A stretch of DNA of 64,000 bases. Origin: a virus. Of this stretch, positions 1,132-12,213 are shown in pieces. Where the stretch lies: IMG/VR virus record IMGVR_UViG_3300044641_009805, positions 62,001-126,000 of that record; one strand, given 5' to 3'. Under the pieces are notes generated by a model. It saw only the letters and a list, made by a program, of their open reading frames with translations. It searched no databases and had not been told where the DNA came from. The position numbers were made by a program, and so were the translations under genes. Numbering within the stretch: position 1 is the stretch's first letter; each line of letters starts with the position of its first letter.

Positions 1132-1183
1132 GATTTCAACGCTGGCCACTAACCACAACCTCTTGACCTTGAAAGAAAAAGAA

Positions 1184-1375
1184 ATGAGCAACGAGAACAG
1201 CAACATCAGCACGGACACCTGCGACGACTGCGGACGACATGGCCCCGGGACACGTTACGTGCAGGACGACTCGACGACATACTTCATCTGCATGTCGTGT
1301 GGGCCAAAGCAATTCGAAAAGACCGCACGTCGGGACATCGACTCATGGCTGGCAGGAGGTGACTTCGGGGGATGA
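1184..1375 (+). CDS. Small zinc-ribbon protein
   Basis: 63 residues from the ATG at 1184; an upstream in-frame TTG at 1163 would add seven residues. Two CxxC pairs (Cys13/16 and Cys36/39) spaced about 20 residues apart form a typical zinc ribbon. The first 11 residues are polar and rich in Asn and Ser. A purine-rich stretch before the ATG could serve as ribosome binding site. Its stop codon overlaps the next gene's start (GATGA at 1371-1375), so the two are probably translated as a pair. The function is not known; zinc ribbons this small usually contact nucleic acid or another protein. Confidence 0.75.
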   Translation: MSNENSNISTDTCDDCGRHGPGTRYVQDDSTTYFICMSCGPKQFEKTARRDIDSWLAGGDFGG

Positions 1376-1626
1376 GCTGGAATTACCGAGTTGTCCGCAA
1401 GATCCTCTCTGGTGAAGGATACACCACAACTCAGTACGGAATCCATGAGGTCTACTACGATGACGATCACGTACCGACTTCATGTACCGTCAACCCTGTC
1501 ACCCCTTATGGTGAGTCCGAGGACGAGTTGGCCCAAGACGTGCGGCATTACGCCTCGGCCTTGGAGAAGCCGGTTCTTGATTACGATTCGATCGGTGTAA
1601 AGTCAGAGTCGAACGTGGTAGAGTAG
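1372..1626 (+). CDS. Conserved small phage protein, MSWNYRVVR type
   Basis: 84 residues beginning MSWNYRVVRKIL and containing HEVYYDDDHVPTSC. This resembles an uncharacterised protein type met in many phages and some bacteria (recalled, not searched). A second copy lies at 2579-2839: both have R(V/I)VR(K/Q)IL near the N-terminus, an EVYYD core followed by PTS, and a later R-x3-A-x2-(K/R)P(V/I)L. The start codon overlaps the stop of the zinc-ribbon gene. The promoter for the next gene lies inside its 3' end (1596-1624). Function unknown. Confidence 0.8.
   Translation: MSWNYRVVRKILSGEGYTTTQYGIHEVYYDDDHVPTSCTVNPVTPYGESEDELAQDVRHYASALEKPVLDYDSIGVKSESNVVE
1596..1624 (+). promoter_or_regulatory. 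Leaderless-type promoter inside an upstream CDS
   Basis: TGTAAA (1596-1601), 17 bp, TAGAGT (1619-1624), AGAACC, ATG at 1631. It lies within the last 31 bp of the 1372-1626 gene. Confidence 0.7.
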
Positions 1627-1630
1627 AACC

Positions 1631-1765
1631 ATGAAGAACAAGAGGAAGCAAAACCCTATCGCCGTGGCCATGACTCTTCGACACGCCACGACGACAACCC
1701 GTATGAAGGATCGTCGTAACCGGCGCCCGAAGGACGCCCGCCACAAGGAGGACTGGTACAAGTAG
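1631..1765 (+). CDS. 44-residue highly basic peptide
   Basis: Starts at the promoter-defined ATG and runs MKNKRKQNPIAV... to ...KEDWYK, TAG at 1763-1765. About 40% of the residues are Lys, Arg or His, with a central RMKDRRNRRPKDARHK block. Such composition suggests RNA or DNA binding, or a short-lived inhibitor of a host nucleic-acid enzyme, but no family is recognised. The exact promoter fit upstream is the main argument that it is real. Confidence 0.6.
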   Translation: MKNKRKQNPIAVAMTLRHATTTTRMKDRRNRRPKDARHKEDWYK

Positions 1766-1809
1766 ACCCAACGGGTTTACCATTGGCGCAGCAGAGATAC
1801 ATTGCGGCA

Positions 1810-2082
1810 ATGGCACGAAAGAAGAAGCAAGAGGCACAAGATAAGCAAGCCTCGATAATCGAGATTCAAATACCGGAAGCAAAGATGGTTCCTGCAAATC
1901 AAGTGGTGCCTGGACAGGTCGTCAAAATTCCAGGCGGTGAGTTTCACAAGGTCGTATCTGTGGATCCCATCCTCGACCCGTCTCACCCTCAGCTCTGGGG
2001 CAATGAAGTCATTGCCAGGGTACAAGATGGCGGGGGAACGAAGCTGGTGATCCTGAAGGGACGGGTCGAACTAGCGGCTTGA
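1810..2082 (+). CDS. Hypothetical protein, 90 residues
   Basis: Starts MARKKKQEAQDK at ATG 1810. A TTG at 1783 would add nine residues, and neither start has a convincing ribosome binding site. After a basic N-terminus comes a beta-rich stretch (PGQVVKIPGGEFHKVVSV) reminiscent of a small SH3-like barrel, ending in VILKGRVELAA. It follows the basic peptide after a short gap and ends just before the first long stem-loop. No promoter of the local family precedes it, so it may be co-transcribed. Function unknown. Confidence 0.65.
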   Translation: MARKKKQEAQDKQASIIEIQIPEAKMVPANQVVPGQVVKIPGGEFHKVVSVDPILDPSHPQLWGNEVIARVQDGGGTKLVILKGRVELAA

Positions 2083-2093
2083 TCCTGACACCC

Positions 2094-2172
2094 GGATGAC
2101 CCAGGAGAGGTTTTTAGCAAATCATGGAAGGTTACCAAGGGGTGGCTTTTCGTAACCTCTCCTGGGTCATCC
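2094..2172 (+). repeat. Long stem-loop element, copy 1
   Basis: Perfect 19-bp inverted repeat: GGATGACCCAGGAGAGGTT (2094-2112) with its complement at 2154-2172, loop 41 nt. The same 17-bp core stem recurs at 9534-9620 and 11039-11118. There is no T-run after it. The next promoter starts 8 bp downstream. The loop holds GGTTACC, the reverse complement of the GGTAACC found in the other two loops. Confidence 0.9.
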
Positions 2173-2180
2173 TCAGGTAG

Positions 2181-2208
2181 TGTAAAGTCTCAAGGAAAGT
2201 GATATATT
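2181..2208 (+). promoter_or_regulatory. Leaderless-type promoter
   Basis: TGTAAA (2181-2186), 16-bp spacer, TATATT (2203-2208), AAGACC, ATG at 2215. It lies directly after the stem-loop. Confidence 0.7.
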
Positions 2209-2214
2209 AAGACC

Positions 2215-2493
2215 ATGACCGAGGTTCTTGAGTCGATTCCGATTGATCCCATCGTAGAACACCCGACGGATGACATCGCAGCTGGGCCTCTACTTGAGAT
2301 CATGTTCGAAGGAGTTTGGATCCTGGCAGAGGAGGACGTGTTCGGGTGTTGGACTGGGTTGCGGAGGAAGAACGGCGAAGAGATCCATGGGTCGATCTAT
2401 CCTCTCGGGGGGAAGACGTTCTACACAGGTTCTCGGGTCTGCGGGTGCAAGGCATGTCAGGAACATGTGGAGGCGAAGTTCAAGAAGAACTGA
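2215..2493 (+). CDS. Hypothetical protein with a C-terminal Cys cluster
   Basis: 92 residues. An acidic N-terminal third (many Glu, Asp and Pro) is followed by a beta-rich region (LLEIMFEGVWILAEED) and a C-terminal CGCKACQEH, which could bind a metal with Cys47 or the final His. The start is set by the promoter 6 bp upstream. It leads a short run of tightly packed genes to 3057 whose stop and start codons touch or overlap. No family is recognised. Confidence 0.75.
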   Translation: MTEVLESIPIDPIVEHPTDDIAAGPLLEIMFEGVWILAEEDVFGCWTGLRRKNGEEIHGSIYPLGGKTFYTGSRVCGCKACQEHVEAKFKKN

Positions 2494-2495
2494 TC

Positions 2496-2582
2496 ATGGA
2501 TGAGATGACATTTGGCGACAAAGTTCTGGCTGTTCTCACCATCGGCATCGTGCTGATGGTCTTCGCGATGGAGTTGAAATGA
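2496..2582 (+). CDS. 28-residue single-pass membrane peptide
   Basis: ATG 2496 lies 2 bp after the preceding stop. MDEMTFGDKVLAVL is followed by a continuous hydrophobic stretch to residue 27, long enough for one membrane helix, with the acidic N-terminus probably outside or periplasmic. The stop overlaps the next start (ATGA at 2579-2582), which argues for real translation within an operon. Tiny phage membrane peptides often modify host membrane functions; no role can be assigned here. Confidence 0.6.
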   Translation: MDEMTFGDKVLAVLTIGIVLMVFAMELK

Positions 2583-2839
2583 AGTCAGACCAACGCATCG
2601 TGAGGCAGATCCTTCCATCAGGTGCCACCTACGATGGTATCTATGAGGTCTACTATGATGAGGAAGGTAGACCTACATCCAGGGCCACTCAACTGTCTAC
2701 TCTCCTCGCCCCAACAACAAAGGCTCTTGTCATAGGACTGAGCGACATGAGACGGGCTTTTGATCGACCTATCTTGCTCGAGGTGAACGATGAACAAGGA
2801 AGATTCGTAGAGATATCTACACAAGGAGACATGACATGA
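2579..2839 (+). CDS. Paralogue of the 1372-1626 protein
   Basis: 86 residues with RIVRQIL near the start and the core GIYEVYYDEEGRPTS. It aligns along its length with the 84-residue protein at 1372, but lacks the Trp of MSWNYR and has a longer tail. The ATG overlaps the stop of the membrane peptide and its own stop overlaps the next start (ATGACATGA at 2833), so it sits in a translationally coupled string. Function unknown. Confidence 0.8.
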   Translation: MKSDQRIVRQILPSGATYDGIYEVYYDEEGRPTSRATQLSTLLAPTTKALVIGLSDMRRAFDRPILLEVNDEQGRFVEISTQGDMT

Positions 2840-3057
2840 CGACATTCTACAACCAAGAAAAAGCAGCGCTGCTCCAGGCTTTCGTTGCAATCCTCAATGA
2901 TGCAGAGGCCATCCTAGACAAGATCGAAGCCCTTGACATCACGCACAAAGGAGAACCTGATCACGATCATCTGGCTCTGAACGACCTGGTGGCCGACGCC
3001 ATCGAACTCGCGGAGGGGCTACGCGACGCCGCAGACAGCGTCAAAGAAGGAATCTAA
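2836..3057 (+). CDS. Hypothetical helical acidic protein
   Basis: 73 residues, predicted almost entirely helical, with heptad-like Leu/Ile spacing (LLQAFVAILNDAEAILDKIEAL and a second helix LADAIELAEGLRDAADSVKE-like), suggesting a helical hairpin. It has a good ribosome binding site (AAGGAGAC) before the ATG, and the ATGA overlap couples it to the preceding gene. No family recognised. Confidence 0.75.
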   Translation: MTTFYNQEKAALLQAFVAILNDAEAILDKIEALDITHKGEPDHDHLALNDLVADAIELAEGLRDAADSVKEGI

Positions 3058-3065
3058 CCAAGCGG

Positions 3066-3284
3066 TTGGAAGATACCTTAGACCTGCACGGGGTGTCTCA
3101 TGAGGATGCCTCTGAAATGGTCCACAGGTTCATCAATGATCATTGGGTAGAAGGGTGGACCCTTCACGTCATCACGGGAAACTCTACGAAGATGAAGTCC
3201 ATCGTTCAATCCGTCCTGAACCTGTATCAGGTCGACTGGATTGATGACGAATGGAACGCTGGCAGCATCAAGATTTTTACATAG
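3066..3284 (+). CDS. Smr-domain-like protein
   Basis: 72 residues, read from a TTG at 3066; no earlier in-frame ATG is available. The order LDLHGVSHEDA (6-16), then LHVITGNSTKMKSIVQSVL (about 33-51) matches the Smr (small MutS-related) fold, whose signatures are LDLHG near the start and a central (I/V)xGxG(T/S) loop. Here the second motif reads ITGNSTK. Smr domains are nicking endonucleases or RNA-binding modules, found alone or at the end of MutS2. Stand-alone copies of about 80 residues are normal. It is the last gene of the 2215-3284 run. Confidence is moderate because the motif is short. Confidence 0.6.
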   Translation: MEDTLDLHGVSHEDASEMVHRFINDHWVEGWTLHVITGNSTKMKSIVQSVLNLYQVDWIDDEWNAGSIKIFT

Positions 3285-3289
3285 CTTGT

Positions 3290-3318
3290 TGTAAAGTCAC
3301 TGAAACAAATGATAGGGT
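3290..3318 (+). promoter_or_regulatory. Leaderless-type promoter
   Basis: TGTAAA (3290-3295), 17 bp, TAGGGT (3313-3318), ATAATC, ATG at 3325. A TATAAT also lies at 3318-3323, but at non-standard spacing. Confidence 0.65.
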
Positions 3319-3324
3319 ATAATC

Positions 3325-3537
3325 ATGCGGATCTTGCCGACAGACAACGTCGACCTGACGTACTACTCTTCTTCACATCTTAGGTCGATCGGCGAAGCTC
3401 TTGTCGAACGTTTGAAGAAGGGTCAGGTAAGCCTGGTCGGGCTAGATCAAGCTGCTCTAGCGGCTGCAAAATCAGGGATGCCGACACTCCGCGATGTTCT
3501 CAGGTTGAAGGAGGCCTGCAGGCTTGCGGGGGTGTGA
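3325..3537 (+). CDS. Hypothetical protein, 70 residues
   Basis: Begins MRILPTDNVDLTYYSS at the promoter-defined ATG. Two helices follow (IGEALVERLKKGQVSL and a Leu/Arg-rich C-terminal helix LRDVLRLKEACRLAGV). The pattern is compatible with a small helical bundle. Its stop overlaps the GTG of the next gene (GTGTGA at 3532-3537). No family recognised. Confidence 0.7.
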   Translation: MRILPTDNVDLTYYSSSHLRSIGEALVERLKKGQVSLVGLDQAALAAAKSGMPTLRDVLRLKEACRLAGV

Positions 3538-3803
3538 CAGTGGCGTGGATTGATGACCATAGGATCCTGTTCATCTTCAGAACGGCCATGGAATCATTGA
3601 AGAGAGGAGATGAGGCCTCAGCTCAGTTCTATCTGAAACAAATCCCCCCAGAACAAATGGAGTATGTTTGGGGTCTTGTATCCCAGGCGACGGGTCGACC
3701 CATCCATGAACTTCGTAAACCTTGGTGGAAACGCCACATCAAACTGTTCGTTTCGGGGTTTGTGATTCTTGGAACCATTCTTTACTATACCACACGAGGG
3801 TAA
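3534..3803 (+). CDS. Tail-anchored small membrane protein
   Basis: 89 residues from a GTG at 3534 that overlaps the previous stop. The soluble part (1-65) is helical, with LKRGDEASAQFYLKQIPPEQ. The C-terminal end is basic KPWWKRHIK followed by one hydrophobic segment LFVSGFVILGTILYY, giving a single membrane anchor with the N-terminus in the cytoplasm by the positive-inside rule. The next gene's ATG follows its stop directly. Role unknown. Confidence 0.7.
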   Translation: MTVAWIDDHRILFIFRTAMESLKRGDEASAQFYLKQIPPEQMEYVWGLVSQATGRPIHELRKPWWKRHIKLFVSGFVILGTILYYTTRG

Positions 3804-4025
3804 ATGAACAACGATGAATTCAATGACTTGATCATGCGACTCCGCGACTCCTCCACCCCACCACATCTGCGTGAGGAGGTCATCATGGCACTCAAACACC
3901 AACGTCAGATGTTAGAGGATATTTACCTAGGGGCGCGCAACGGACTTCACGTAGCACCAGAGCACCTTGCAGGGGTCGCCCTCGGTAAAACAGGTTACGG
4001 GGGATTGGGTGACATGGGATTCTGA
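3804..4025 (+). CDS. Hypothetical protein, 73 residues
   Basis: ATG directly after the preceding TAA. Predicted helical to about residue 55 (FNDLIMRLRDSS, EEVIMALKHQRQML), then a Gly-rich tail GKTGYGGLGDMGF. It sits in the promoter-less string 3325-4251, with gene ends touching. No family recognised. Confidence 0.7.
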   Translation: MNNDEFNDLIMRLRDSSTPPHLREEVIMALKHQRQMLEDIYLGARNGLHVAPEHLAGVALGKTGYGGLGDMGF

Positions 4026-4026
4026 T

Positions 4027-4251
4027 ATGCAAACGATGACGTCATGCTGGGTGATTCGCACCAAAAATGGTGTTCGAGGTGGACAAGAATTCGTCTACTG
4101 GAACCTTAATGAGGGTTGGGTCTACGATCCAATGTTAGCGACTCGTTATGCAGACGAAGCGGAGGCCTGCGGGTCGATTGCAAACTATGCTGCGAACGGG
4201 TTGTTTCCAGAAAATGGTGTGTCCGCTGTGCAAATCTTCACGACGTCGTGA
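4027..4251 (+). CDS. Hypothetical protein, 74 residues
   Basis: Starts MQTMTSCWVIRTKN at 4027, 1 bp after the upstream stop; the longer open frame before it overlaps the upstream gene and is unlikely to be used. The sequence reads like a small alpha/beta domain that begins with a strand (CWVIRTKNG, EFVYWNLNEGWV) and then a helix with Ala/Glu (YADEAEACGSIANYAA). It is the last gene of the 3325-4251 string. Function unknown. Confidence 0.7.
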   Translation: MQTMTSCWVIRTKNGVRGGQEFVYWNLNEGWVYDPMLATRYADEAEACGSIANYAANGLFPENGVSAVQIFTTS

Positions 4252-4263
4252 TACAGTACGAAT

Positions 4264-4322
4264 GGGTCCATAAATGTGGTTGCGATGGTGACATCGATTC
4301 TGGTTCGAATCCAGATGGATCC
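4264..4322 (+). other. Degenerate tRNA-like element
   Basis: A 7-bp acceptor-like pairing GGGTCCA (4264-4270) with TGGATCC (4316-4322) encloses a near-perfect T arm, TCTGG-TTCGAAT-CCAGA (4299-4315). Between them is only a short hairpin CGATG-GTGA-CATCG (4283-4296). The space is about 13 nt too short for normal D and anticodon arms, and the hairpin loop has 4 nt. It therefore cannot be a standard tRNA: either a tRNA remnant or a tRNA-mimicking RNA. The rest of 4252-4486 shows only a short GGAGGA/TCCTCC hairpin near 4437. Confidence 0.4.
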
Positions 4323-4486
4323 CCTGGGATACAGGTCGTGGTAACTTGTAATCCTGACCAAACAATCGTTATGATTGTGGTCATTAGCGGCATGAAGGGC
4401 TGCCACGACAGGAAGCTGCCGATTAAGTAGGTGAACGGAGGACCTTCTTCCTCCATAGTAACTAACCCCGGGTTTCGGAGGAAACA

Positions 4487-4831
4487 GTGTACAACGATTC
4501 GATTTTCAAGCTAAAGTTGCAGATCGAATTTCTGAATAAGGGTGTCGTACCCCTTGCGTGGAGGCAAGAAAGTGGAGCTCCGACCCACTTCGACATCAAC
4601 AAGATCCTTGCCGAGTTCCCCCCGGACGAGGCCCGCGCGATGAAGCGCAAGTTCCGCAAGCTCTGGAGGAAGCTGGTTGAGCACAGCCTGAAGCGTCCAG
4701 GAAAAAACTCCAGGCGCCGGCTTCATAACATCGAACATGGCGAGGCGATCCCATCCCGCAAGGCGAAGAACTTCAGAAAGGGCGAGGTCCTCAATGCCAT
4801 TCACCGCAAAGTTGCCAAGGCACCCAAATGA
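4487..4831 (+). CDS. Basic hypothetical protein
   Basis: 114 residues from a GTG at 4487, chosen because a strong GGAGG lies 6 nt upstream and no better ATG exists. The N-terminal half is mixed, with a FPPDEARAMKRKFRKLWRKL helix. The C-terminal half is very basic (RPGKNSRRRLHN, RKAKNFRKGE), which suggests nucleic-acid binding. The stop overlaps the ATG of the following gene (ATGA at 4828), indicating coupled translation. No family recognised. Confidence 0.75.
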   Translation: MYNDSIFKLKLQIEFLNKGVVPLAWRQESGAPTHFDINKILAEFPPDEARAMKRKFRKLWRKLVEHSLKRPGKNSRRRLHNIEHGEAIPSRKAKNFRKGEVLNAIHRKVAKAPK

Positions 4832-5109
4832 AGCTGACAGGAACCATGTGGCAGGTGAAGCCCTACGCTCCATCGATATGGGGTAACATCACGGATCATC
4901 CAGCGACGTACGTTGACGTCATCAACAACCGGGTGACCATGATGGGATGCATCCGGCCAGGAGACACGATCCTCATCATCTCTGAGAGAACGAGGTTCTC
5001 CGGTCTGGACAAATACCTCGAGGCTGTCAAAGTGGCCACTCCTGTCCCTGGGTGGTGCAATGCCACATATTTCACCAGCGACTCCTTGTGGATGGAAAGA
5101 ATCGCATAG
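4828..5109 (+). CDS. Hypothetical protein, 93 residues
   Basis: Starts MKLTGTMWQVKPYAP. Although it begins MKLT, the helix pattern of the head-signal family does not follow, so it is not counted with them. The body is beta-rich (YVDVINNRVTMMGCIRPGDTILIIS) and could be a small barrel with a loop at RPGD. Coupled by ATGA overlap to the basic protein upstream. Function unknown. Confidence 0.7.
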   Translation: MKLTGTMWQVKPYAPSIWGNITDHPATYVDVINNRVTMMGCIRPGDTILIISERTRFSGLDKYLEAVKVATPVPGWCNATYFTSDSLWMERIA

Positions 5110-5110
5110 G

Positions 5111-5139
5111 TGCAAATCTGCACCTGAACAAGATATAAA
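5111..5139 (+). promoter_or_regulatory. TGCAAA-type promoter within an inverted repeat
   Basis: TGCAAA (5111-5116), 17 bp, TATAAA (5134-5139). ATGs follow at 5144 and 5147. The -35 box lies inside GGTGCA-AATC-TGCACC (5109-5124), a possible operator. Confidence 0.6.
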
Positions 5140-5143
5140 CAGC

Positions 5144-5317
5144 ATGATGACTCGTGAGGAAATGAAGGCCGCGGCCGACTTCTTGAGGAAGTACGCCACT
5201 GCCGTGGAGACGAAGTTGTACTGGAACATGTCGACCAGTGAGGCGAAGGCTGAAATCAAGGAGGCCAAACATCTAGCAACGTTATTGGACGAGGCAGCAG
5301 AAAAAGAGTGCAACTAG
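5144..5317 (+). CDS. Hypothetical helical protein, 57 residues
   Basis: Starts MMTREEMKAAADFLRKYA; either of the two adjacent ATGs (5144, 5147) may be used, and 5147 fits a leaderless start best. The whole protein is predicted as two amphipathic helices rich in Glu, Lys and Ala, with a short linker WNMSTSEA. No domain is recognised. Between its stop and the next gene is an ACGTGT-type palindrome (GCACGTGTACACG region). Confidence 0.65.
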   Translation: MMTREEMKAAADFLRKYATAVETKLYWNMSTSEAKAEIKEAKHLATLLDEAAEKECN

Positions 5318-5351
5318 TTACACGCACGTGTACACGGGAGCGGTTTTTTGA

Positions 5352-5738
5352 ATGAAGCGATCTGACACCGAGATGTTGCTGATGGCCGCCGGTGCAGGCC
5401 TGCGTAAGTCCGACCTACGGGCATTCAGACTTGGTGCAGTAGGCATCCGGAACGATGGTATCCTCGTATCGGCATCCAATGGTCCTGCCCCTTTCCCCCA
5501 TCCTGATGCCCATGCTGAGGCTCGGCTGACGATGAAGCTGACTCCCGGGTCTGAGATCTGGGTGGCACGTGTTCGGAAGGATGGAACCCTTGGTATCGCC
5601 CGGCCTTGTCCCCGGTGCATGGTGCGTATCCGGGCCGCCGGGGTATCTCGAGTGGCCTACACGATTTCAGATATAGAACATGGAGTGATCCATTTGCACT
5701 CCGGTGGTGAAGTAATGAAGCCGATGAGAGGGCGATGA
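5352..5738 (+). CDS. Cytidine/dCMP-deaminase-superfamily protein
   Basis: 128 residues. The two zinc motifs of the superfamily are in the right order: HAE (54-56) and PCPRC (85-89, Cys86 and Cys89), with AGLRKSD and a conserved-looking GIRNDGILVSASNG strand before them. The family hydrolytically deaminates cytosine-containing nucleosides or nucleotides. In phages dCMP deaminase feeds dTMP synthesis, but this protein is shorter than T4 Cd (about 190 residues) and lacks an obvious allosteric insertion, so the substrate is open. It could also act on nucleic acid or a modified base. Start: ATG 5352 with a weak GGGAG 13 nt upstream. Confidence 0.75.
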   Translation: MKRSDTEMLLMAAGAGLRKSDLRAFRLGAVGIRNDGILVSASNGPAPFPHPDAHAEARLTMKLTPGSEIWVARVRKDGTLGIARPCPRCMVRIRAAGVSRVAYTISDIEHGVIHLHSGGEVMKPMRGR

Positions 5739-5741
5739 AGC

Positions 5742-5933
5742 ATGCGTGTCAAGAGAATGAAAGAAGGCAAACGTGTGACGCATGAGATGTCGCACAGGGA
5801 GAAGCTTCACTACGATCCTCACCTCGACGTGTACTGGATCGTGACGTTGTTGCCTGACGGGACGCAACACATCGGGTCGCCGTTCGCCACGAGCGCCTTG
5901 GATACCCTGTACAACGCATCTTGGGGGTCGTGA
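5742..5933 (+). CDS. Hypothetical basic protein, 63 residues
   Basis: Starts MRVKRMKEGKRVTHEM 3 bp after the deaminase stop, so it is probably co-transcribed with it. A basic, His-containing N-terminal third is followed by LDVYWIVTLLPDGTQHIGSPF, which looks like a beta-hairpin, and a short helix. No family recognised. After its stop comes an A-tract (TGAAAAAAAA) that leads into the next promoter. Confidence 0.65.
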   Translation: MRVKRMKEGKRVTHEMSHREKLHYDPHLDVYWIVTLLPDGTQHIGSPFATSALDTLYNASWGS

Positions 5934-5952
5934 AAAAAAAGCGCGGGAGCAG

Positions 5953-5981
5953 TGCAAAGTTTGCGGAAGAAAGTGTATACT
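5953..5981 (+). promoter_or_regulatory. Leaderless-type promoter
   Basis: TGCAAA, 17 bp, TATACT (5976-5981), GGGACC, ATG 5988. An A8 tract lies about 12 bp upstream of the -35 box. Confidence 0.75.
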
Positions 5982-5987
5982 GGGACC

Positions 5988-6176
5988 ATGGACCACGTCA
6001 AGAAGCTCACGGTCGTCGACGCAGACAACTCCCGCGAGTACCGCATCGAGGTGGAAGAGGGCCCGCTGCCTTACACGACGCGGATCGTGTTCGGGCCAAG
6101 CTTCTCGATCACCCTCCAGAACGAGGACGTCGCGACGCTCGCTCAGCTTCTCATGCAGGCTTCTTCGGACGTCTGA
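5988..6176 (+). CDS. Hypothetical acidic protein, 62 residues
   Basis: The promoter-defined ATG gives MDHVKKLTVVDADN. An earlier in-frame codon at 5952 would put the promoter inside the gene and is rejected. Three probable strands (LTVVDADN, YRIEVEEG, TRIVFGPSFSITL) precede a helix (VATLAQLLMQAS), a small beta-then-alpha fold. Function unknown. Confidence 0.75.
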   Translation: MDHVKKLTVVDADNSREYRIEVEEGPLPYTTRIVFGPSFSITLQNEDVATLAQLLMQASSDV

Positions 6177-6194
6177 AAAAAGTTCTCCACCCGG

Positions 6195-6223
6195 TGCAAA
6201 GTTCCACTTCGAAAATGTATATA
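6195..6223 (+). promoter_or_regulatory. Leaderless-type promoter
   Basis: TGCAAA (6195-6200), 17 bp, TATATA (6218-6223), 7 bp to ATG 6231; one base longer than the standard spacing. Confidence 0.7.
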
Positions 6224-6230
6224 TAGGATC

Positions 6231-6593
6231 ATGAACAGCATCAAGTACGTGGCCATCCTCAACGACACCATCAAGACCCTCCGACTCAATGTCGATCCGG
6301 CGCAGCTGAACCACCTGCGTGCCGCCGCCGCGGAGATCGACCAACTCCGTGGAGAGGTCGCCGACCTCGCCTTCGGCCTGTCGAAACGGCTCGCCGCCTA
6401 CGCGGCCGACATCGACGCTGGCCGCACCAGCGTCGAGCTACCTACCGCGTCGATGAAGGGTGCGAACGACCTTCTCTTCATGCAAAAGAAGAACGACGCC
6501 CTCCTGCGAAAAGCCGAGGGCTTCCCGCTCCTCCTCACCGGGGCTCTCGGTTTCGAAGCCGAGAAGAAGTTCTTCGAACTCATCCGGGGCTGA
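6231..6593 (+). CDS. Hypothetical helical protein, paralogue of 13595-13957
   Basis: 120 residues, predicted all-helical. It aligns end to end with the 120-residue protein at 13595: shared features include LR-x-A-A-x2-I-D-x-LR, (S/A)KRL-x3-A-x-DI-x-(A/D)GRT, and a C-terminal KKFFELIRG against KEFFRILRGV. The identical length and shared ends show an old tandem-array duplication followed by strong divergence. Both are high in Ala and Leu and could dimerise as coiled coils. Function unknown. Confidence 0.8.
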   Translation: MNSIKYVAILNDTIKTLRLNVDPAQLNHLRAAAAEIDQLRGEVADLAFGLSKRLAAYAADIDAGRTSVELPTASMKGANDLLFMQKKNDALLRKAEGFPLLLTGALGFEAEKKFFELIRG

Positions 6594-6612
6594 AAAAAAG
6601 TTCTCCCCTCGG

Positions 6613-6641
6613 TGCAAAGTTCTACCTCGAAAAGGTATACT
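6613..6641 (+). promoter_or_regulatory. Leaderless-type promoter
   Basis: TGCAAA, 17 bp, TATACT (6636-6641), GAAGCC, ATG 6648. A7 tract upstream, after the preceding stop. Confidence 0.75.
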
Positions 6642-6647
6642 GAAGCC

Positions 6648-6920
6648 ATGAACACCTTCCCGATCATCCTCGACGGTTCGAAGTTCGACTGGTACAACGC
6701 CTCCGCCGCGCACGGCATGGGATCGATCAGCGATCATCCTGGCTTCCCGCAGTCCGGCTGGGCACCGGGTCAGGTCGCGGTCCGCAGCCACCGTACGGGC
6801 AAGGTGGTGGCCTTCAAGTTCGTCGAGATCGCCAACGACGGCGAGGGCAACGTCAGCCTCAACTACGAGGGCACTCTCCCCGACGGCCGCTACTGCGCAC
6901 TTTCTCTCGCGGTCGGCTGA
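6648..6920 (+). CDS. Hypothetical protein, 90 residues
   Basis: MNTFPIILDGSKFDW at the promoter-defined ATG. Beta-rich throughout (GQVAVRSHRTGKVVAFKFVEI, VSLNYEGTL), with a Gly/His loop SAAHGMGSISDHPGF. It may be a small barrel. No signal peptide or membrane segment. No family recognised. Confidence 0.75.
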   Translation: MNTFPIILDGSKFDWYNASAAHGMGSISDHPGFPQSGWAPGQVAVRSHRTGKVVAFKFVEIANDGEGNVSLNYEGTLPDGRYCALSLAVG

Positions 6921-6926
6921 GGGCAG

Positions 6927-6955
6927 TGCAAAGTCAACCTCAGGTAAGGTAAGGT
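6927..6955 (+). promoter_or_regulatory. Leaderless-type promoter
   Basis: TGCAAA, 17 bp, TAAGGT (6950-6955), AGAACC, ATG 6962. It begins 7 bp after the preceding stop. Confidence 0.75.
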
Positions 6956-6961
6956 AGAACC

Positions 6962-7192
6962 ATGAAGCGAAACTCCTCTCCCAAGTCGAAGGTTCTCGAG
7001 CTGGCTTCCTTCTGCGTCTCGGAAGGCACACCCCTCGAGGTCCGCAGCACCCGCATCAAGGGGCGGTTCGGTGGCGACTTCCTCGTCGAGGTCGACGCGG
7101 GCACTCAGGTCTTGGCCCGAGCCCGCCACCGCAACTGGCGCACGGCCTACAAGCTTCTCGGCATCGAACTGTCACGCCGGGGTGTCGCCTGA
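6962..7192 (+). CDS. Hypothetical basic protein, 76 residues
   Basis: A basic N-terminus (MKRNSSPKSK) is followed by a helix with VLELASFCV and a beta-hairpin (TRIKGRFGGDFLVEVDAG), then a basic helix HRNWRTAYKLLGIEL. The pattern is compatible with a small nucleic-acid-binding domain, but no known family is identifiable. High codon GC, like its neighbours. Confidence 0.7.
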   Translation: MKRNSSPKSKVLELASFCVSEGTPLEVRSTRIKGRFGGDFLVEVDAGTQVLARARHRNWRTAYKLLGIELSRRGVA

Positions 7193-7193
7193 G

Positions 7194-7222
7194 TGCAAAG
7201 CGCACGGTGAATGAGGTAAGAT
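7194..7222 (+). promoter_or_regulatory. Leaderless-type promoter
   Basis: TGCAAA, 17 bp, TAAGAT (7217-7222), AGAACC, ATG 7229. Confidence 0.75.
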
Positions 7223-7228
7223 AGAACC

Positions 7229-7960
7229 ATGGACGCCACACCCCGGATCGAAGCCCTCCGCACCGCTAAGGCCATCATCGGCTCTCACGGTGTGGTTGCG
7301 CACATGAACAAGTACAACCGAGAAGTCCTCGCTCGGGAGGTGACCGAGGGATCGACGGGGATGCGGTGCGACTTCAACCTGGACCCCGCTCGCAGCGCCT
7401 GGCACGAGTCCAACCCGTCGGTCACGTTGGTGGTCGCCTACAATGCGGACCCGAAGGGGGCACAGCTCAATGATGAAGGTGCCATGGTGCTAGAAAACTA
7501 CCTACGTATCGCCGTGGGGACTTCAGGCGGCGACATGGACCTAGAGACGCTGAAGCAGCGGGAAAGCATGGTCTCGATGGTTGCCATGCTGGGAGAAATG
7601 CTGACAACGACGTTGCCCCAGAAGATCACGTTGACCATGGAGTCACCCGCTCAGGTGGTCGAGAGGACACAACGCCAGCACGAGCAGTTCGTTGGCAAGC
7701 AAATCTACGACAACCTCGGTGAGGCGGCCTTCAAGGGCCTCCGCGTCGATGGCTCAGGCCGATTCGTACGCCTCACTTCCACCTACGCTTCTGTGGCCGG
7801 AAAGTACCCGGATTCTGGGACCTACCGGTTCCGTCACGTCCGTCGAGTTGACCGTAGGGGTTGCCCCAAGGAAGTCGCCAACTATTCGATCCGGGTGTTC
7901 GGGTGTGGAGACGGTAGCCTCCCTCCTTCGGTCGCGATTCATCGCATCAAGGCAGTGTAA
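7229..7960 (+). CDS. Hypothetical protein, 243 residues
   Basis: One of the two largest products of the left-arm array after Sir2. Mixed alpha/beta N-terminal part (IEALRTAKAIIGSHGV, SVTLVVAYNADPKGA), a helical centre (LETLKQRESMVSMVAMLGEML) and a Cys-containing, Arg-rich beta C-terminus (YRFRHVRRVDRRGC, RVFGCGDGSLPPSV). No catalytic motif is recognised. The start is set by the promoter 6 bp upstream. The next promoter starts inside its last codons (7956). Confidence 0.8.
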   Translation: MDATPRIEALRTAKAIIGSHGVVAHMNKYNREVLAREVTEGSTGMRCDFNLDPARSAWHESNPSVTLVVAYNADPKGAQLNDEGAMVLENYLRIAVGTSGGDMDLETLKQRESMVSMVAMLGEMLTTTLPQKITLTMESPAQVVERTQRQHEQFVGKQIYDNLGEAAFKGLRVDGSGRFVRLTSTYASVAGKYPDSGTYRFRHVRRVDRRGCPKEVANYSIRVFGCGDGSLPPSVAIHRIKAV

Positions 7961-7984
7961 AGTTCCTCAGAGAGGTGATAGAGT
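7956..7984 (+). promoter_or_regulatory. Leaderless-type promoter for an 8-codon ORF
   Basis: TGTAAA, 17 bp, TAGAGT (7979-7984), AGAACC, ATG 7991. It overlaps the end of the upstream gene. Confidence 0.7.
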
Positions 7985-7990
7985 AGAACC

Positions 7991-8017
7991 ATGGAAACGA
8001 TCAAGATCGGCATCTGA
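7991..8017 (+). CDS. 8-residue leader peptide ORF
   Basis: The ATG sits at the exact position of all other leaderless starts in the array but opens METIKIGI followed by TGA. The next gene begins 38 nt downstream with its own AGGAG site. It may be a true upstream ORF that regulates 8056-8451, or the remnant of a gene replaced during an exchange. Confidence 0.45.
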   Translation: METIKIGI

Positions 8018-8055
8018 CCCAATCCACCCGCCAACCTTCCGCCCAGGAGAACTAC

Positions 8056-8451
8056 ATGTCGACTCGCTCTTTCATCGGAATCCAGAATCTCGACGGCACG
8101 GTCACCGGCGTCTACTGCCACCATGATGGATATCTCGACGGCGTCGGAGCGACCCTCAAGGCCCACTACACGACGGTCCGCCAGGTGCTCGACCTCGTGG
8201 CGCTCGGCTCGTTGTCCTCTCTCCATGAGGACCTCGACTACACGCAGGCCTACCATCGTGACCGTGGTGATGACCTCGACATCTCCACCTACGACTCCCC
8301 TGTTGACATCAGCTTCGACGACGGAGGCTACGAGTTCGTCTACCTCTTCCGGCCGTCGGATGAGCGAGGATCGACCTATAGCTGGCACTACGCAGACCGT
8401 GAGGTCTTCGGCAAAGGTCCCGAGTTCAAGCCCCTCGCCTTCGCGGTGTAA
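8056..8451 (+). CDS. Conserved phage protein of unknown function (STRSxIGIxNxDG type)
   Basis: 131 residues. The N-terminal MSTRSFIGIQNLDGTV, followed by GVYCHHDGYLDGVGATL and HYTT, resembles an uncharacterised protein type recalled from many phages and bacteria; its conserved Cys, His and Asp residues (YCHHDGY) suggest a metal or small-ligand site. A C-terminal YEFVYLF strand follows. Unlike its neighbours it uses a classical ribosome binding site (CAGGAGAACTAC before the ATG), after a short leader ORF. The family's role is not known to me. Confidence 0.8.
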   Translation: MSTRSFIGIQNLDGTVTGVYCHHDGYLDGVGATLKAHYTTVRQVLDLVALGSLSSLHEDLDYTQAYHRDRGDDLDISTYDSPVDISFDDGGYEFVYLFRPSDERGSTYSWHYADREVFGKGPEFKPLAFAV

Positions 8452-8475
8452 AGTCAACCCCCAACAAGATAAGGT
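8447..8475 (+). promoter_or_regulatory. Leaderless-type promoter
   Basis: TGTAAA (8447-8452), 17 bp, TAAGGT (8470-8475), AACAAC, ATG 8482. The -35 box overlaps the upstream stop codon. Confidence 0.75.
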
Positions 8476-8481
8476 AACAAC

Positions 8482-8724
8482 ATGACACGACGAGTTACGA
8501 ACAAGCTTCTCGAGATGATGGAAGAGGGCGCCTTGGATGCCGAGGTGCTGGTGAGGGCCTGCCTGACCTTCATGTCGGAGGCCGACGTGGCCGAGATGGC
8601 CGTGGGTGAGGGGTTCCTCGAGGAGGAGGACGCAGAGATCGACGAGGACGAAGATGAGGATGAGGTAGGCGAGGATGATGAGGAGGAAGAGCCCCTCTCA
8701 ACCTTCGGGGTGGACGACGACTGA
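8482..8724 (+). CDS. Acidic-tail protein, 80 residues
   Basis: The first 50 residues form a helical region (VTNKLLEMMEEGALDAEVLVRACL, MSEADVAEMAVGEGF). From about residue 48 the chain is nearly all Glu and Asp, with a run of more than 25 acidic positions ending EEEEPLSTFGVDDD. Such tails mimic DNA or bind basic proteins; a DNA-mimic or histone-like partner role is possible but unproven. Confidence 0.75.
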   Translation: MTRRVTNKLLEMMEEGALDAEVLVRACLTFMSEADVAEMAVGEGFLEEEDAEIDEDEDEDEVGEDDEEEEPLSTFGVDDD

Positions 8725-8741
8725 AAAAGTGCGGGCGGCGG

Positions 8742-8770
8742 TGCAAAGTCCTGTGTGATCGTGGTAGATT
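8742..8770 (+). promoter_or_regulatory. Leaderless-type promoter
   Basis: TGCAAA, 17 bp, TAGATT (8765-8770), GGAACC, ATG 8777. An A5 tract follows the upstream stop. Confidence 0.75.
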
Positions 8771-8776
8771 GGAACC

Positions 8777-9520
8777 ATGCCGATCATCAAGAAGAGCTAC
8801 GCCTACGGTCCCGGCCCCTCCACGTCGGAGGTGTACTTCCAGCACCGCGTCCTGCGGATCGAGAAGACCACGGAGACCCGCAACTGGTCGGACACGCTCG
8901 ACTACTCGGACCACCGCTCGACGGAGTGCACCTGGGCCCTCGTGTGGCTCGGTACCCGCGGCGTTCCAGCCCGCGATGCCCACTACGCCGGCGGTCGCAC
9001 CGTCGCCTACTTCGACGCCCTCAAGTGGGACGCCGACAAGATCCGCGACCTCGAGGTCCACGAGCAGTTTGCCTGGGTGGATTGCACCAACCTCTTCGTG
9101 GATCGTAACGGCTACTCGCTGGTGCCTTCGGTCGATCCTTTCGACATGCAGCTCCTCCACGGCGGTCCGGAGATGATCGAGGGGCTCGCGGTCTGGGAGG
9201 CCTACCACACGGCTCGGATCGCCCGTGCGGAGGCGGAACGGATGGCCAAGGTCGCCGAAGCTGCTGCCCAGGTCGCCGCCGAGAAGGCGAAGAGGGATGC
9301 CCGCCAAGCAAAGCGAGATGCCAAGCTCCAGGCCGAGAAGGCGGTGGCTGAGGGTCAGTTGGCCCGGATCCCCGCCAAGGGCACCACGGTCACGGTCGAT
9401 GGGTTCACCGGCAAGGTCTTCTGGATCGGTGTCTCCAAGTACCGCGGCAAGTGGAATGCCCGGGCAGGGGTGAAGGACCCCAAAGGGAACGTCCAGTGGG
9501 TCCCGGCAGATAAGTTCTGA
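8777..9520 (+). CDS. Hypothetical protein with coiled coil and C-terminal SH3-like region
   Basis: 247 residues in three parts. An N-terminal mixed domain (1-130) is rich in aromatic residues and Asp/His. A charged Ala/Lys/Glu/Arg helix (about 140-200, AAAQVAAEKAKRDARQAKRD) should form a coiled coil. The C-terminal part, about 45 residues with KGTTVTVDGFTGKVFWIGVS and VKDPKGNVQWVP, reads like a small beta barrel of KOW/SH3 type. This could be a nucleic-acid or ribosome-associated protein (inference). A stem-loop element follows the gene. Confidence 0.75.
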   Translation: MPIIKKSYAYGPGPSTSEVYFQHRVLRIEKTTETRNWSDTLDYSDHRSTECTWALVWLGTRGVPARDAHYAGGRTVAYFDALKWDADKIRDLEVHEQFAWVDCTNLFVDRNGYSLVPSVDPFDMQLLHGGPEMIEGLAVWEAYHTARIARAEAERMAKVAEAAAQVAAEKAKRDARQAKRDAKLQAEKAVAEGQLARIPAKGTTVTVDGFTGKVFWIGVSKYRGKWNARAGVKDPKGNVQWVPADKF

Positions 9521-9533
9521 CCCTCGTCCCACC

Positions 9534-9620
9534 CCCAGGATGACCCAGGAGAGGTTCCTGAAACTGGGGGTGGGGTAACCTAGGTCGAATTGTCCTAGGC
9601 CTCTCCTGGGTCATCCTGGG
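9534..9620 (+). repeat. Long stem-loop element, copy 2
   Basis: Perfect 21-bp inverted repeat, 9534-9554 with 9600-9620 (core GGATGACCCAGGAGAGG), 45-nt loop containing GGGGTAACC and an inner CCTAGG/CCTAGG pairing. A competing 11-bp helix, CCCACCCCCAG (9528-9538) with CTGGGGGTGGG (9564-9574), overlaps the left arm. Confidence 0.9.
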
Positions 9621-9647
9621 TGACCTGAGAAAAAGTGCCCATGTCGG

Positions 9648-9676
9648 TGCAAAGTTCCACCGGGAAAGGGTATACT
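9648..9676 (+). promoter_or_regulatory. Leaderless-type promoter
   Basis: TGCAAA, 17 bp, TATACT (9671-9676), GGGACC, ATG 9683. It lies 27 bp after stem-loop copy 2, with an A5 tract between. Confidence 0.75.
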
Positions 9677-9682
9677 GGGACC

Positions 9683-9769
9683 ATGAAGAACGCCGCCGCT
9701 GACATCCTCGGAGCCATCGTCACCGTCGCCACCACGGCCTTCGCGGCCTGGTGGATGATGGCCGCCTGA
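9683..9769 (+). CDS. 28-residue single-pass membrane peptide
   Basis: MKNAAADILGAIVTV continues as an uninterrupted hydrophobic segment TTAFAAWWMMAA to the stop at 9767-9769. One membrane helix with a Lys at the N-terminus. The start coincides with the leaderless promoter position and the next promoter begins 7 bp after the stop, so the ORF fills its slot in the array. Probably acts at the inner membrane; role unknown. Confidence 0.65.
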   Translation: MKNAAADILGAIVTVATTAFAAWWMMAA

Positions 9770-9775
9770 ACCCGG

Positions 9776-9803
9776 TGCAAAGTCACCCATGACAAGATAT
9801 ATA
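9776..9803 (+). promoter_or_regulatory. Leaderless-type promoter with -10 in a hairpin loop
   Basis: TGCAAA (9776-9781), 16 bp, TATATA (9798-9803), 6 bp to ATG 9810. The -10 forms the loop of the perfect palindrome at 9789-9811. Confidence 0.7.
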
Positions 9804-9811
9804 CTTGTCAT
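9789..9811 (+). promoter_or_regulatory. Perfect palindrome across the start codon
   Basis: ATGACAAG-ATATATA-CTTGTCAT, 8-bp arms and a 7-nt AT loop, with the right arm ending in the AT of the start codon. It may be an operator or an RNA hairpin. Confidence 0.7.
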
Positions 9812-10136
9812 GAAACTGACCACGAAACAGCTAAGAAGCTTGATCAACGAAGTCCTTGAAGAAGAAGGAGTGACACCGGCCATGACCACCGACCAACTCA
9901 AGGAGATCGCGGCGGAACTCACCAAGGCGGAGAAGGCGGCCTTCCTCAACGCCCGGCCTTACCCCCCGGATGGTCGGGTCCAACTGCCTTCGGGCCGGGT
10001 CCTCGACGTCGGCTCTTGGGAAGCCGCCATGGAACTCAACACCCTCGTCATGTTGCCGCAGAAGAAGATCGGAACAGGCCGAGGTGGTCTGAAGGGTCGC
10101 CCGGCCTGGCTGAAAAAAGCGCTCGGCTACTACTGA
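9810..10136 (+). CDS. Head-signal family protein (MKLT N-terminus), 108 residues
   Basis: Starts MKLTTKQLRSLINEVLEEEG, the clearest member of the N-terminal amphipathic helix family, with a possible (L/I)xE cleavage site at LEEE/G (residues 16-20). The rest has a helix DQLKEIAAELTKAEKAAFL and a basic, Gly-rich C-terminus (KKIGTGRGGLKGRPAWLKK). By analogy with T4 internal head proteins, the helix would direct the protein into the prohead core and be removed by the prohead protease (inference). It is unusual in being encoded in the left-arm small-gene array. An in-frame start at 9789 is rejected because it would include the promoter. Confidence 0.75.
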   Translation: MKLTTKQLRSLINEVLEEEGVTPAMTTDQLKEIAAELTKAEKAAFLNARPYPPDGRVQLPSGRVLDVGSWEAAMELNTLVMLPQKKIGTGRGGLKGRPAWLKKALGYY

Positions 10137-10140
10137 GCGG

Positions 10141-10169
10141 TGCAAAGTCAACCTCGAACAGGATAAGGT
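10141..10169 (+). promoter_or_regulatory. Leaderless-type promoter
   Basis: TGCAAA, 17 bp, TAAGGT (10164-10169), AGAACC, ATG 10176. Confidence 0.75.
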
Positions 10170-10175
10170 AGAACC

Positions 10176-10397
10176 ATGGACAACATCAAGATCTTCGTGG
10201 TGCAGCAGGGTGCAATGTCCTATTCCAACGTCGACGAGGTCACCTACGTGTTCCTCAACGAGGCGGACGCTCGGGTCAAGTACGCGTACCTCCTCGAGAA
10301 CCGGGTGGTCGAGTGCGACTCTTACGACAGGACCTGGACTTCCCTCCACGCGGTGACTCCTGGCGACGAGGTGTCGCAGGACAACAAGATCGCCTGA
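10176..10397 (+). CDS. Hypothetical protein, 73 residues
   Basis: MDNIKIFVVQQGAMSYSNVDEV followed by VFLNEADARVKYAYLLENRVV: a strand, a loop and a helix in ferredoxin-like order, then a second strand (TWTSLHAVTPGDEV). The promoter behind it is nearly identical in sequence to the one in front of it, suggesting recent copying of the promoter cassette. Function unknown. Confidence 0.75.
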   Translation: MDNIKIFVVQQGAMSYSNVDEVTYVFLNEADARVKYAYLLENRVVECDSYDRTWTSLHAVTPGDEVSQDNKIA

Positions 10398-10398
10398 G

Positions 10399-10427
10399 TG
10401 CAAAGTCAACCTCGAACAGGATAAGGT
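10399..10427 (+). promoter_or_regulatory. Leaderless-type promoter
   Basis: TGCAAA, 17 bp, TAAGGT (10422-10427), AGAACC, ATG 10434. From -35 to ATG it is identical to the promoter at 10141. Confidence 0.75.
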
Positions 10428-10433
10428 AGAACC

Positions 10434-10751
10434 ATGAACATCATCGAGTACGTCTCCGGCGGCCGTAGGTACCGGGCCACCCTCGTCCCTGGGAAGCACA
10501 TCATCGTGGAGTGCTTCCGGGATGATCAGTTCGTCTCCATGCGGAAGTTCGAGGTCGGCGATGTGGCCGAGTACGACTCCTTCAACCTCCGCTACACCGC
10601 GCCCATCGTCTCCATCGGCAAGTCCACGGTCACGTTCAATGTGTACGACAGCAAGAGGCGCCTCAAGGCTGAGAACTTCGCCTGGCGCAATTGGAACTTC
10701 AACGCCGAGGAGATCGCCCGTCGGAACGCGGAGACGAGCCAGCACATCTGA
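10434..10751 (+). CDS. Hypothetical phage protein, 105 residues
   Basis: Beta-rich N-terminal two thirds with FEVGDVAEYDSFNLRY, then IGKSTVTFNVYDSKRRLK, and a C-terminal helix FNAEEIARRNAETSQHI. The EVGDVAEYDSxNLxY and EEIARRNxxTS elements are ones I associate with a small uncharacterised phage protein type (recalled, not searched). It may be a barrel with a terminal helix. No enzymatic residues stand out. Confidence 0.75.
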   Translation: MNIIEYVSGGRRYRATLVPGKHIIVECFRDDQFVSMRKFEVGDVAEYDSFNLRYTAPIVSIGKSTVTFNVYDSKRRLKAENFAWRNWNFNAEEIARRNAETSQHI

Positions 10752-10757
10752 ACCCGG

Positions 10758-10786
10758 TGCAAAGTTCGACCGTGATAGGGTATACT
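10758..10786 (+). promoter_or_regulatory. Leaderless-type promoter
   Basis: TGCAAA, 17 bp, TATACT (10781-10786), AGGACC, ATG 10793. Confidence 0.75.
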
Positions 10787-10792
10787 AGGACC

Positions 10793-11035
10793 ATGAACAA
10801 GTTCGATGCTTTCGCGGCCAAGGCGAAGATCCTCGGGGAGATGCTGGAGACCGTCGGCAAGCTGCGGGACTCCGACCTGGAGAAGCTCGTGGCGCCGATG
10901 GAAGGCATGACGGTGTGGTCCCACGACGATGTTGAGTCGCTGACTGACTCGATCAACCACCTCTTCGAGGAGCTGATGATGCTCCAGGAAGAACTCCAGT
11001 CCTTCACCAGCCCGGCTGAGAGGTCGAGTGGCTGA
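10793..11035 (+). CDS. Hypothetical helical protein, 80 residues
   Basis: The promoter-defined ATG gives MNKFDAFAAKAKILGEML. All-helical, with heptad spacing (ILGEMLETVGKL, LTDSINHLFEELMMLQEEL) that should form a coiled coil. Acidic overall. The longer open frame back to 10691 overlaps the previous gene and is not used. Function unknown. Confidence 0.75.
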   Translation: MNKFDAFAAKAKILGEMLETVGKLRDSDLEKLVAPMEGMTVWSHDDVESLTDSINHLFEELMMLQEELQSFTSPAERSSG

Positions 11036-11038
11036 CCC

Positions 11039-11118
11039 AGGATGACCCAGGAGAGGCCCTGAGAATTCCCGGTGGGGTAACCTCCGCCTCGAACCTCCGG
11101 CCTCTCCTGGGTCATCCT
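11039..11118 (+). repeat. Long stem-loop element, copy 3
   Basis: Perfect 20-bp inverted repeat, 11039-11058 with 11099-11118 (core GGATGACCCAGGAGAGG), 40-nt loop with GGTGGGGTAACCT. It starts 3 bp after the preceding stop codon and 21 bp before the next promoter. Confidence 0.9.
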
Positions 11119-11139
11119 CGAGGGAGTGCAAGGGGACGG

Positions 11140-11168
11140 TGCAAAGTTCCACCGGAGAGGGATAAGAT
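11140..11168 (+). promoter_or_regulatory. Leaderless-type promoter
   Basis: TGCAAA, 17 bp, TAAGAT (11163-11168), GGACCC, ATG 11175. Confidence 0.75.
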
Positions 11169-11174
11169 GGACCC

Positions 11175-11705
11175 ATGACAGTGATATCGTGGATCGCCCT
11201 CCTCGTCGCCATAGTGGCCCTTGCTGACTCGCAAGAGACTCGAGCACGCCTCAAGACACTCAGCCGCATCCCCGGTCCACGAGGGCTCCGAGGTCTACGT
11301 GGGGCGCCAGGACCGAGAGGAGAGGCCGGAGAGGTAGGCCCATGTGGCCCACCAGGACCCCAAGGTGAAACAGGTCCCCAAGGAACCCCAGGCATTCCTG
11401 GGCCAAAGGGAGACCCAGGAGACGGTGGGCCAATGGGACCCCAAGGCCCGACAGGGGAAGCAGGACCCAAGGGTGAGACCGGTCTAACGGGTGACCAGGG
11501 TCCAAGCGGCCCAACAGGTCCCCAGGGTCCTCGAGGTGAGGCAGGACCGACCGGACCCCAAGGTGATATGGGACCACCTGGCCCACGGGGAGAAGTGGGA
11601 CCTAGAGGTCCCCAGGGCTTCAAGGGTGAGTCCAGCGGACCGGCCGAACGGGAACTCCTCGCCCATTGGGCCCACGAGGCACTGAAGCCCCGAGGCGAAG
11701 AATGA
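11175..11705 (+). CDS. Membrane-anchored collagen-like protein
   Basis: 176 residues. Residues 3-18 ([16 protein letters not shown]) form one membrane helix without a cleavage site. A short charged linker follows, and from Gly34 to about residue 153 there are 40 uninterrupted Gly-X-Y triplets rich in Pro, Glu, Lys and Arg, with one Cys (GPCGPP). A 20-residue helical tail ends the protein. Such repeats form collagen triple helices. Phage collagen repeats are best known from tail fibres, but this one has a membrane anchor, no fibre domains and a promoter of the small-gene array. That points to a trimeric rod attached to the host membrane (inference). Confidence 0.85.
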
Positions 11706-11716
11706 CACGAGATCGG

Positions 11717-11745
11717 TGCAAAGTCACCCCTGAATAGGGTATACT
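11717..11745 (+). promoter_or_regulatory. Leaderless-type promoter with GTG start
   Basis: TGCAAA, 17 bp, TATACT (11740-11745), GGGACC, GTG 11752. The only GTG among the leaderless-type starts. Confidence 0.75.
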
Positions 11746-11751
11746 GGGACC

Positions 11752-11949
11752 GTGAAGATCATCTACCTGTTGTTCAGCGACGTGACCTTCGGGACCCACG
11801 AGCACGGCTTCATCCCGCGCAAAGTCGTTCAGGATCCGGACGACGAGGACGCCCGCTACGAGCGCCACCTGAAGTCCAAGGGCATCAATGCCCGTGTGTA
11901 CGACGGCAAGGTGAAGCTCCTTGAGCCCGGGGAAAAGTTCACGATCTGA
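11752..11949 (+). CDS. Hypothetical protein, 65 residues
   Basis: Starts at GTG 11752, at the standard distance from the promoter: MKIIYLLFSDVTFGTHEHG. It is a strand, loop and helix (DDEDARYERHLKSKG), then a beta hairpin RVYDGKVKLLEPGEKF. Small alpha/beta fold, no known family. The preceding collagen gene and this one are separated by only the promoter. Confidence 0.7.
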   Translation: MKIIYLLFSDVTFGTHEHGFIPRKVVQDPDDEDARYERHLKSKGINARVYDGKVKLLEPGEKFTI

Positions 11950-11950
11950 G

Positions 11951-11979
11951 TGCAAAGTTCAACCTCGAAAGGATATACT
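11951..11979 (+). promoter_or_regulatory. Leaderless-type promoter
   Basis: TGCAAA, 17 bp, TATACT (11974-11979), AGGATC, ATG 11986. Confidence 0.75.
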
Positions 11980-11985
11980 AGGATC

Positions 11986-12213
11986 ATGAACAACGCAATC
12001 CAACCCGGCGATCGAGTCATCCTCTCCCCCGTCAACGGCCTCGGGTGCAGTGCCTTCCTCGTCCTGGAGGTCGACCCCAACGTGCATCCGACCCACCGCC
12101 TCTACGTCGAAGGCCGGAATGGCCAGCGCTGGTGGGCCCGGATCGAGGGAGCGCGGATCCTCCCGGAGGAACCTGAGGGGAACTTCACCTCGAGCCGTCA
12201 CGGCGATTGGTGA
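11986..12213 (+). CDS. Hypothetical protein, SH3-like, 75 residues
   Basis: MNNAIQPGDRVILSPVNGLG opens like a small SH3/KOW barrel (PGDRV, then AFLVLEVDPNV, RLYVEGRNGQRWWARIEG, ARILPEE). The tail GNFTSSRHGDW is polar. The start is fixed by the promoter; an in-frame codon at 11950 lies within the promoter and is rejected. Function unknown; such barrels often bind nucleic acids or proteins. Confidence 0.75.
   Translation: MNNAIQPGDRVILSPVNGLGCSAFLVLEVDPNVHPTHRLYVEGRNGQRWWARIEGARILPEEPEGNFTSSRHGDW

Follow-up and report, generated by a model that had tools for sequence, protein, structure and literature searches.

PeSL cassettes reportedly occur in T4-type phages such as RB49 and phi1 (Arbiol et al. 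2010; Comeau et al. 2014, both through citing literature). Long intergenic stems of double-stranded RNA also lie between phage genes where RNase III processes phage mRNAs, as in T7. PeSL stands for promoter early stem-loop, and the description used here draws in part on a citing paper (PMC4503421). The RB49 sequence served as our PeSL control; two of its terminator-plus-promoter intergenic regions have 9-10 bp stems with 4-nt loops and a T-run, followed by a TTGACA-type promoter. How large phages rearrange small variable genes while keeping each of them expressible is poorly understood.

The element described here resembles PeSLs in that a T4-like phage has a stem-loop and a promoter between its small variable genes, in the order stop codon, stem-loop, promoter, start codon. 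Its neighbours vary among relatives and homologous blocks end there, here at hairpin-free promoters too. In contrast to PeSLs, its arms are 17-29 bp long, its loop of 40-45 nt carries GGTWACC, 16 of 18 copies have no T-run, and the promoter is of the form TGYAAAGT-N15-TANNNT with predicted leaderless starts. Moreover, only 4 of the more than 30 array promoters have a hairpin. The likeness to PeSLs suggested by a sequence-only reading of this DNA thus holds for layout, for gain and loss at orthologous genes and for block ends at promoters, but not for terminator form and apparently not for promoter class. Since the form of an effective intrinsic terminator was tested and not found, we did not file the element as a PeSL; we read it as working like one in layout and shuffling while being built differently. 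T7-type RNase III sites share the long intergenic stems between genes, but the element differs from them in its conserved loop motif, co-varying stem and near-constant promoter spacing. The hairpins could possibly be RNase III sites, as had been proposed; a search for an RNase III gene of family PF14622 gave no match in the phage record.

Hairpins ahead of array promoters

The window, that is, the whole stretch of 64,000 nucleotides that was analysed, comprises bases 62001-126000 of a 278,435-bp virus record (G000). It contains three stem-loops with 100% complementary arms, termed copies Z, Y and W (Table 1). The 17-mer GGATGACCCAGGAGAGG has six occurrences in the window, each of them an arm of Z, Y or W, against 0.07 matches in a shuffled-sequence control with 3 mismatches permitted. 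These stem-loops are real and far beyond chance. A search of the whole record found the 17-mer nowhere else. A covariance model built from 13 copies, however, detected a fourth copy, V, at G000:59857-59945, 2.1 kb before the window, and no further copies in the record. The stem of V, GGATGCCCTTGG, has co-varied relative to the window copies.

Table 1. Hairpins, promoters and an empty site, in window coordinates
Feature	Position	Strand	Description	Preceding stop codon	Following promoter
Promoter array	215..13597	+	25 promoters TGYAAAGT-N15-TANNNT-N6-ATG, serving the hairpin-bearing small genes		
Copy Z	2094..2172	+	19-bp arms, 41-nt loop, sense loop AAGGTTACC	ORF 1783-2082, 11 nt before	2181, 8 nt after
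Promoter and start codon after copy Z	2181..2217	+			
Empty site X	5903..5952	+	Hairpin after the orthologous gene in five relatives, none here		
Copy Y	9534..9620	+	21-bp arms, 45-nt loop containing GGGGTAACC	ORF 8777-9520, 13 nt before	9648, 27 nt after
Promoter and start codon after copy Y	9648..9685	+			
Copy W	11039..11118	+	20-bp arms, 40-nt loop containing GGGGTAACC	Upstream ORF, 3 nt before	11140, 21 nt after
Promoter and start codon after copy W	11140..11177	+	Ahead of a collagen-like ORF		

Copies Z, Y and W lie within the 3' region of the preceding gene and, like those at sites X, S and T of relatives, stand close behind a stop codon and ahead of a promoter. The ORF upstream of W is listed as 10691-11035, and its promoter puts the start at 10793. 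Copy V has no upstream gene and is flanked by divergent promoters, one leftward and ending at 59764, the other rightward and starting at 59969 (record coordinates). Two divergent promoter arrays were seen in this region (G000:C1:51308-75597), leftward to ~59.8 kb and rightward from ~60.0 kb, with V between them.

The array promoters of the window are uniform. The exact TGYAAAGT-N15-TANNNT is present in 22 of 25, and the distance from the -10 to the start codon is exactly 6 nt in 23 of 25, from which leaderless transcripts are predicted. Each hairpin would therefore precede the point where transcription of the next gene is predicted to start. A scan for E. coli sigma70 promoters did not call the array promoter, though its uniform motif stands behind each hairpin. 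At the start of the array, in window 143-252 (+), a tRNA-Arg (CCT) ends at 217 and overlaps the array promoter TGCAAAGT, which begins at 215.

The sequence-only reading had described the three stem-loops, their shared 17-bp stem core, the stem-promoter gaps and the preceding stop codons of Z, Y and W correctly, and further copies do exist, the fourth in the record and others in relatives. Its placement of the element between a stop codon and a promoter is right for three copies and does not extend to V. It took the loop motif of the first copy, Z, to be inverted, which is a matter of reading: GGTWACC is palindromic save for its middle base and nearly the same on both strands, so Z need not carry a flipped loop. 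Every copy detected falls within the promoter array, which makes packaging or dispersed replication signals, also suggested, unlikely.

Stem covariation and strand asymmetry

Among 13 alignable copies, four stem pairs were changed on both sides, and the covariation score exceeded those of all 500 shuffles and all slid controls. Different phages can have stem type GACCCAGG or GCCCTTGG at one and the same site, with a similar loop, and one relative has an unrelated stem, CTCGAGGGCACCGG, enclosing GGGGTAACTAAGGCC, with the loop motif retained. In some relatives the 3' arm is shifted inward. GGTWACC is kept in the middle of the loop, ~19 nt from each arm, and in a consensus fold derived from copies X, Y and W the motif is closed as GG[GUAA]CC. 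A search of Rfam gave nothing above the curated threshold; its only hits at the hairpins were microRNA-precursor look-alikes far below it. In one element of a relative (L029:8141-8230; L111:5019-5108), an arm of type GACCCAGG is combined with an arm of type GCCCTTGG, as though copies exchanged arms one at a time.

The sense-strand fold was more stable than the antisense fold in 21 of 23 distinct copies, the antisense fold being slightly better in two Y copies; for copy V, 'sense' denotes the direction of the nearer promoter. The mean sense-antisense difference was -7.9 kcal/mol, compared to -0.2 (SD 7.0) in 842 control windows, and the asymmetry held on resampling by site (p=0.00017). G-U pairs in the arm duplexes numbered 50 in the sense and 23 in the antisense strand, and loops were slightly more stable than their shuffles in the sense strand only. 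As the copies are related, these strand statistics are strong hints and not independent proofs. They support, rather than prove, that the hairpin acts as sense-strand RNA.

The interpretation that we favour, at about even confidence, is that of a composite cassette shuffled by recombination, whose hairpin would serve at the RNA level as a 3'-end or insulator structure in a read-through transcript. Such a cassette would consist of the long hairpin, a spacer, which at several sites is rich in A, and an array promoter, and recombination would copy, drop and swap it within the small-gene array of a T4-like jumbo phage lineage. Selection would act on the hairpin as a single-strand structure, most likely RNA, with paired arms and GGTWACC at the tip. 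Transcription of the upstream gene would run toward the next promoter, and the hairpin would fold in the read-through RNA. There we infer that it marks or makes an RNA 3' end, through nuclease processing or factor-assisted termination and not as a classic U-tract terminator, and that the next promoter may thereby be insulated. Because V lies between divergent promoters without an upstream gene, not every copy can serve to form a 3' end, and we no longer assume that an upstream mRNA ends at each hairpin.

Spacing to the next start codon

The main rival to an RNA-level role is a promoter-upstream DNA element, which we consider rather unlikely. GGTWACC, at about -105 relative to the predicted transcription start, would be bound by a protein of phage or host that sets the timing or strength of a few array promoters, with the inverted arms forming part of the site or being extruded as a DNA hairpin. 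Such an element would fit the near-constant spacing, as at five sites whose neighbours differ (V, X, Y, S and T) the GGTWACC loop centre lies 103-107 bp ahead of the start codon. It would also fit the symmetry of GGTWACC and arms around a single centre, and the lack of an upstream gene at copy V leaves room for a DNA-level role. However, the distance is 96 at W and 82 at Z, and common descent of the cassette could explain the spacing. The spacers at several sites have a common A-rich core, and that of T resembles both Y of another phage (67%) and S (63%); inheritance of the whole hairpin and promoter cassette is therefore the simpler reading. The stem sequence, unlike a sequence-specific site, varies freely while pairing is kept, and the strand asymmetry is unexpected for double-stranded DNA. 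Extrusion as a cruciform is in addition disfavoured by a 40-nt loop.

Filled and empty sites in relatives

In this family of uncultured giant phages, the element is present in 13 of the 17 IMG/VR records searched, the window's own record included, and 23 distinct copies were collected at nine sites. Presence and absence differ between phages at the orthologous sites X, Y, U and S. Site Y, after gene 8777-9520, is filled here and in seven further records, in which the upstream protein ranges from 97% down to ~55% identity. Two records lack the element there and have a tRNA-Asn in its place. The site is also empty in record L116, with a gene that shares 91% identity with one at a filled site. 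Site X follows gene 5742-5933, and one filled relative remains 98.5% identical as far as the site itself. Site U lies behind a homologue of the Smr-domain gene 3066-3284, a gene without an element in this phage, and site W was seen in this phage only. At X and Y the upstream gene is constant and the downstream gene varies between phages.

A search for paired arms across 84,980 bacterial and archaeal species, each represented by one genome, found none, and BLAST of the element against named phages gave nothing useful. Single-arm matches in L002, L004, L005 and L012 and loop-pattern matches in L072-L081 had no second arm and were rejected as chance.

The presence or absence of the element at several sites, the swapping of arm types between sites and the mixed-arm element might also be expected of a transposable or recombination element. 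The arms would then be its ends or crossover sites, kept perfect by template switching in replication, and the RNA structure would be incidental. MITE- or REP-like palindromic units are similar in this respect, with a length of ~80 bp, inverted ends, several copies and presence or absence at orthologous sites. Here, however, the element is linked to a promoter, and its arms vary freely and co-vary between relatives, with no recognition sequence kept. No transposase was found among the 20 array ORFs scanned, and the comparison made at empty site X showed no recognisable target duplication; the empty phage differs there in the gene end as well. The same sites are filled in phages whose neighbouring proteins are only ~55% identical, and transposition leaves the strand asymmetry unexplained. 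We regard this explanation as improbable.

Exchange at promoters

The order of small genes is shuffled among relatives. When this array was compared with five relatives, 71% of 56 homologous block ends lay within 60 bp of a promoter, compared to 21% of random positions; some of these ends stem from matches between hairpin and promoter copies at different sites. The excess was also seen at promoters without a hairpin, which indicates that the hairpin is unnecessary for shuffling and suggests that promoter repeats drive most of the exchange. At some promoters the hairpin would be a passenger or partner in it. The element offers a countable, alignable marker of small-gene rearrangement in phages beyond the cultured T4 group. 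Given its presence or absence at orthologous genes, its near-constant spacing and its co-varying stem, what intergenic hairpins of this kind do can be tested directly. Tentatively, and with some doubt, the copies may belong to a new family of mobile structured elements, in which a rod-like, GGTWACC-tipped hairpin stands ~105 bp before the transcription start and arms are exchanged between copies with complementarity restored. Unlike known PeSLs, it might tie control of the next promoter to the 3' end of one early transcript.

Terminator form

Plain intrinsic terminators of the upstream genes would account for very stable stems between a stop codon and the next promoter, and in copy V 5 of the 9 nt behind the stem are even T. 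This is nevertheless the least probable explanation: in 16 of 18 copies no more than 3 of these 9 nt are T, the loops measure 40-45 nt, V has no gene to terminate, and hairpins are missing from most array genes, with 4 of them for more than 30 promoters. A terminator scan listed none of the hairpin copies, which its 8-nt loop limit excludes by design.

Other features of the phage

The record encodes a head protein, portal and terminase of T4-like phage families, the terminase being ~40% identical to those of Flavobacterium and Microcystis phages, which identifies a T4-like jumbo phage. Named phages yielded nothing useful in a BLAST with the initial 25 kb of the window, and 16 of the 20 array ORFs scanned had no Pfam match. 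The small-gene array is GC-rich (51-62%), compared to 30-50% in most of the remaining window; GC content drops sharply from ~60% in the array (1-16000) to ~35% in the structural and replication part (28000-64000). Sir2-family, Smr-domain and cytidine-deaminase-like proteins are encoded in the early array (250-1092, 3066-3284 and 5352-5738, +). The relatives of the Sir2 protein come from mixed phyla, with best matches 49-60% identical, and do not indicate the host. A collagen-triple-helix protein (11175-11705, +) adjoins copy W downstream and has homologues in L001/L109 and L010/L110. A 1045-aa protein encoded at 35852-38989 (-) matches an SbcD-like profile over residues 1-349 and an SbcC-like profile over residues 277-1043; the T4 gp46/gp47 nuclease subunits thus appear to be fused in one protein.
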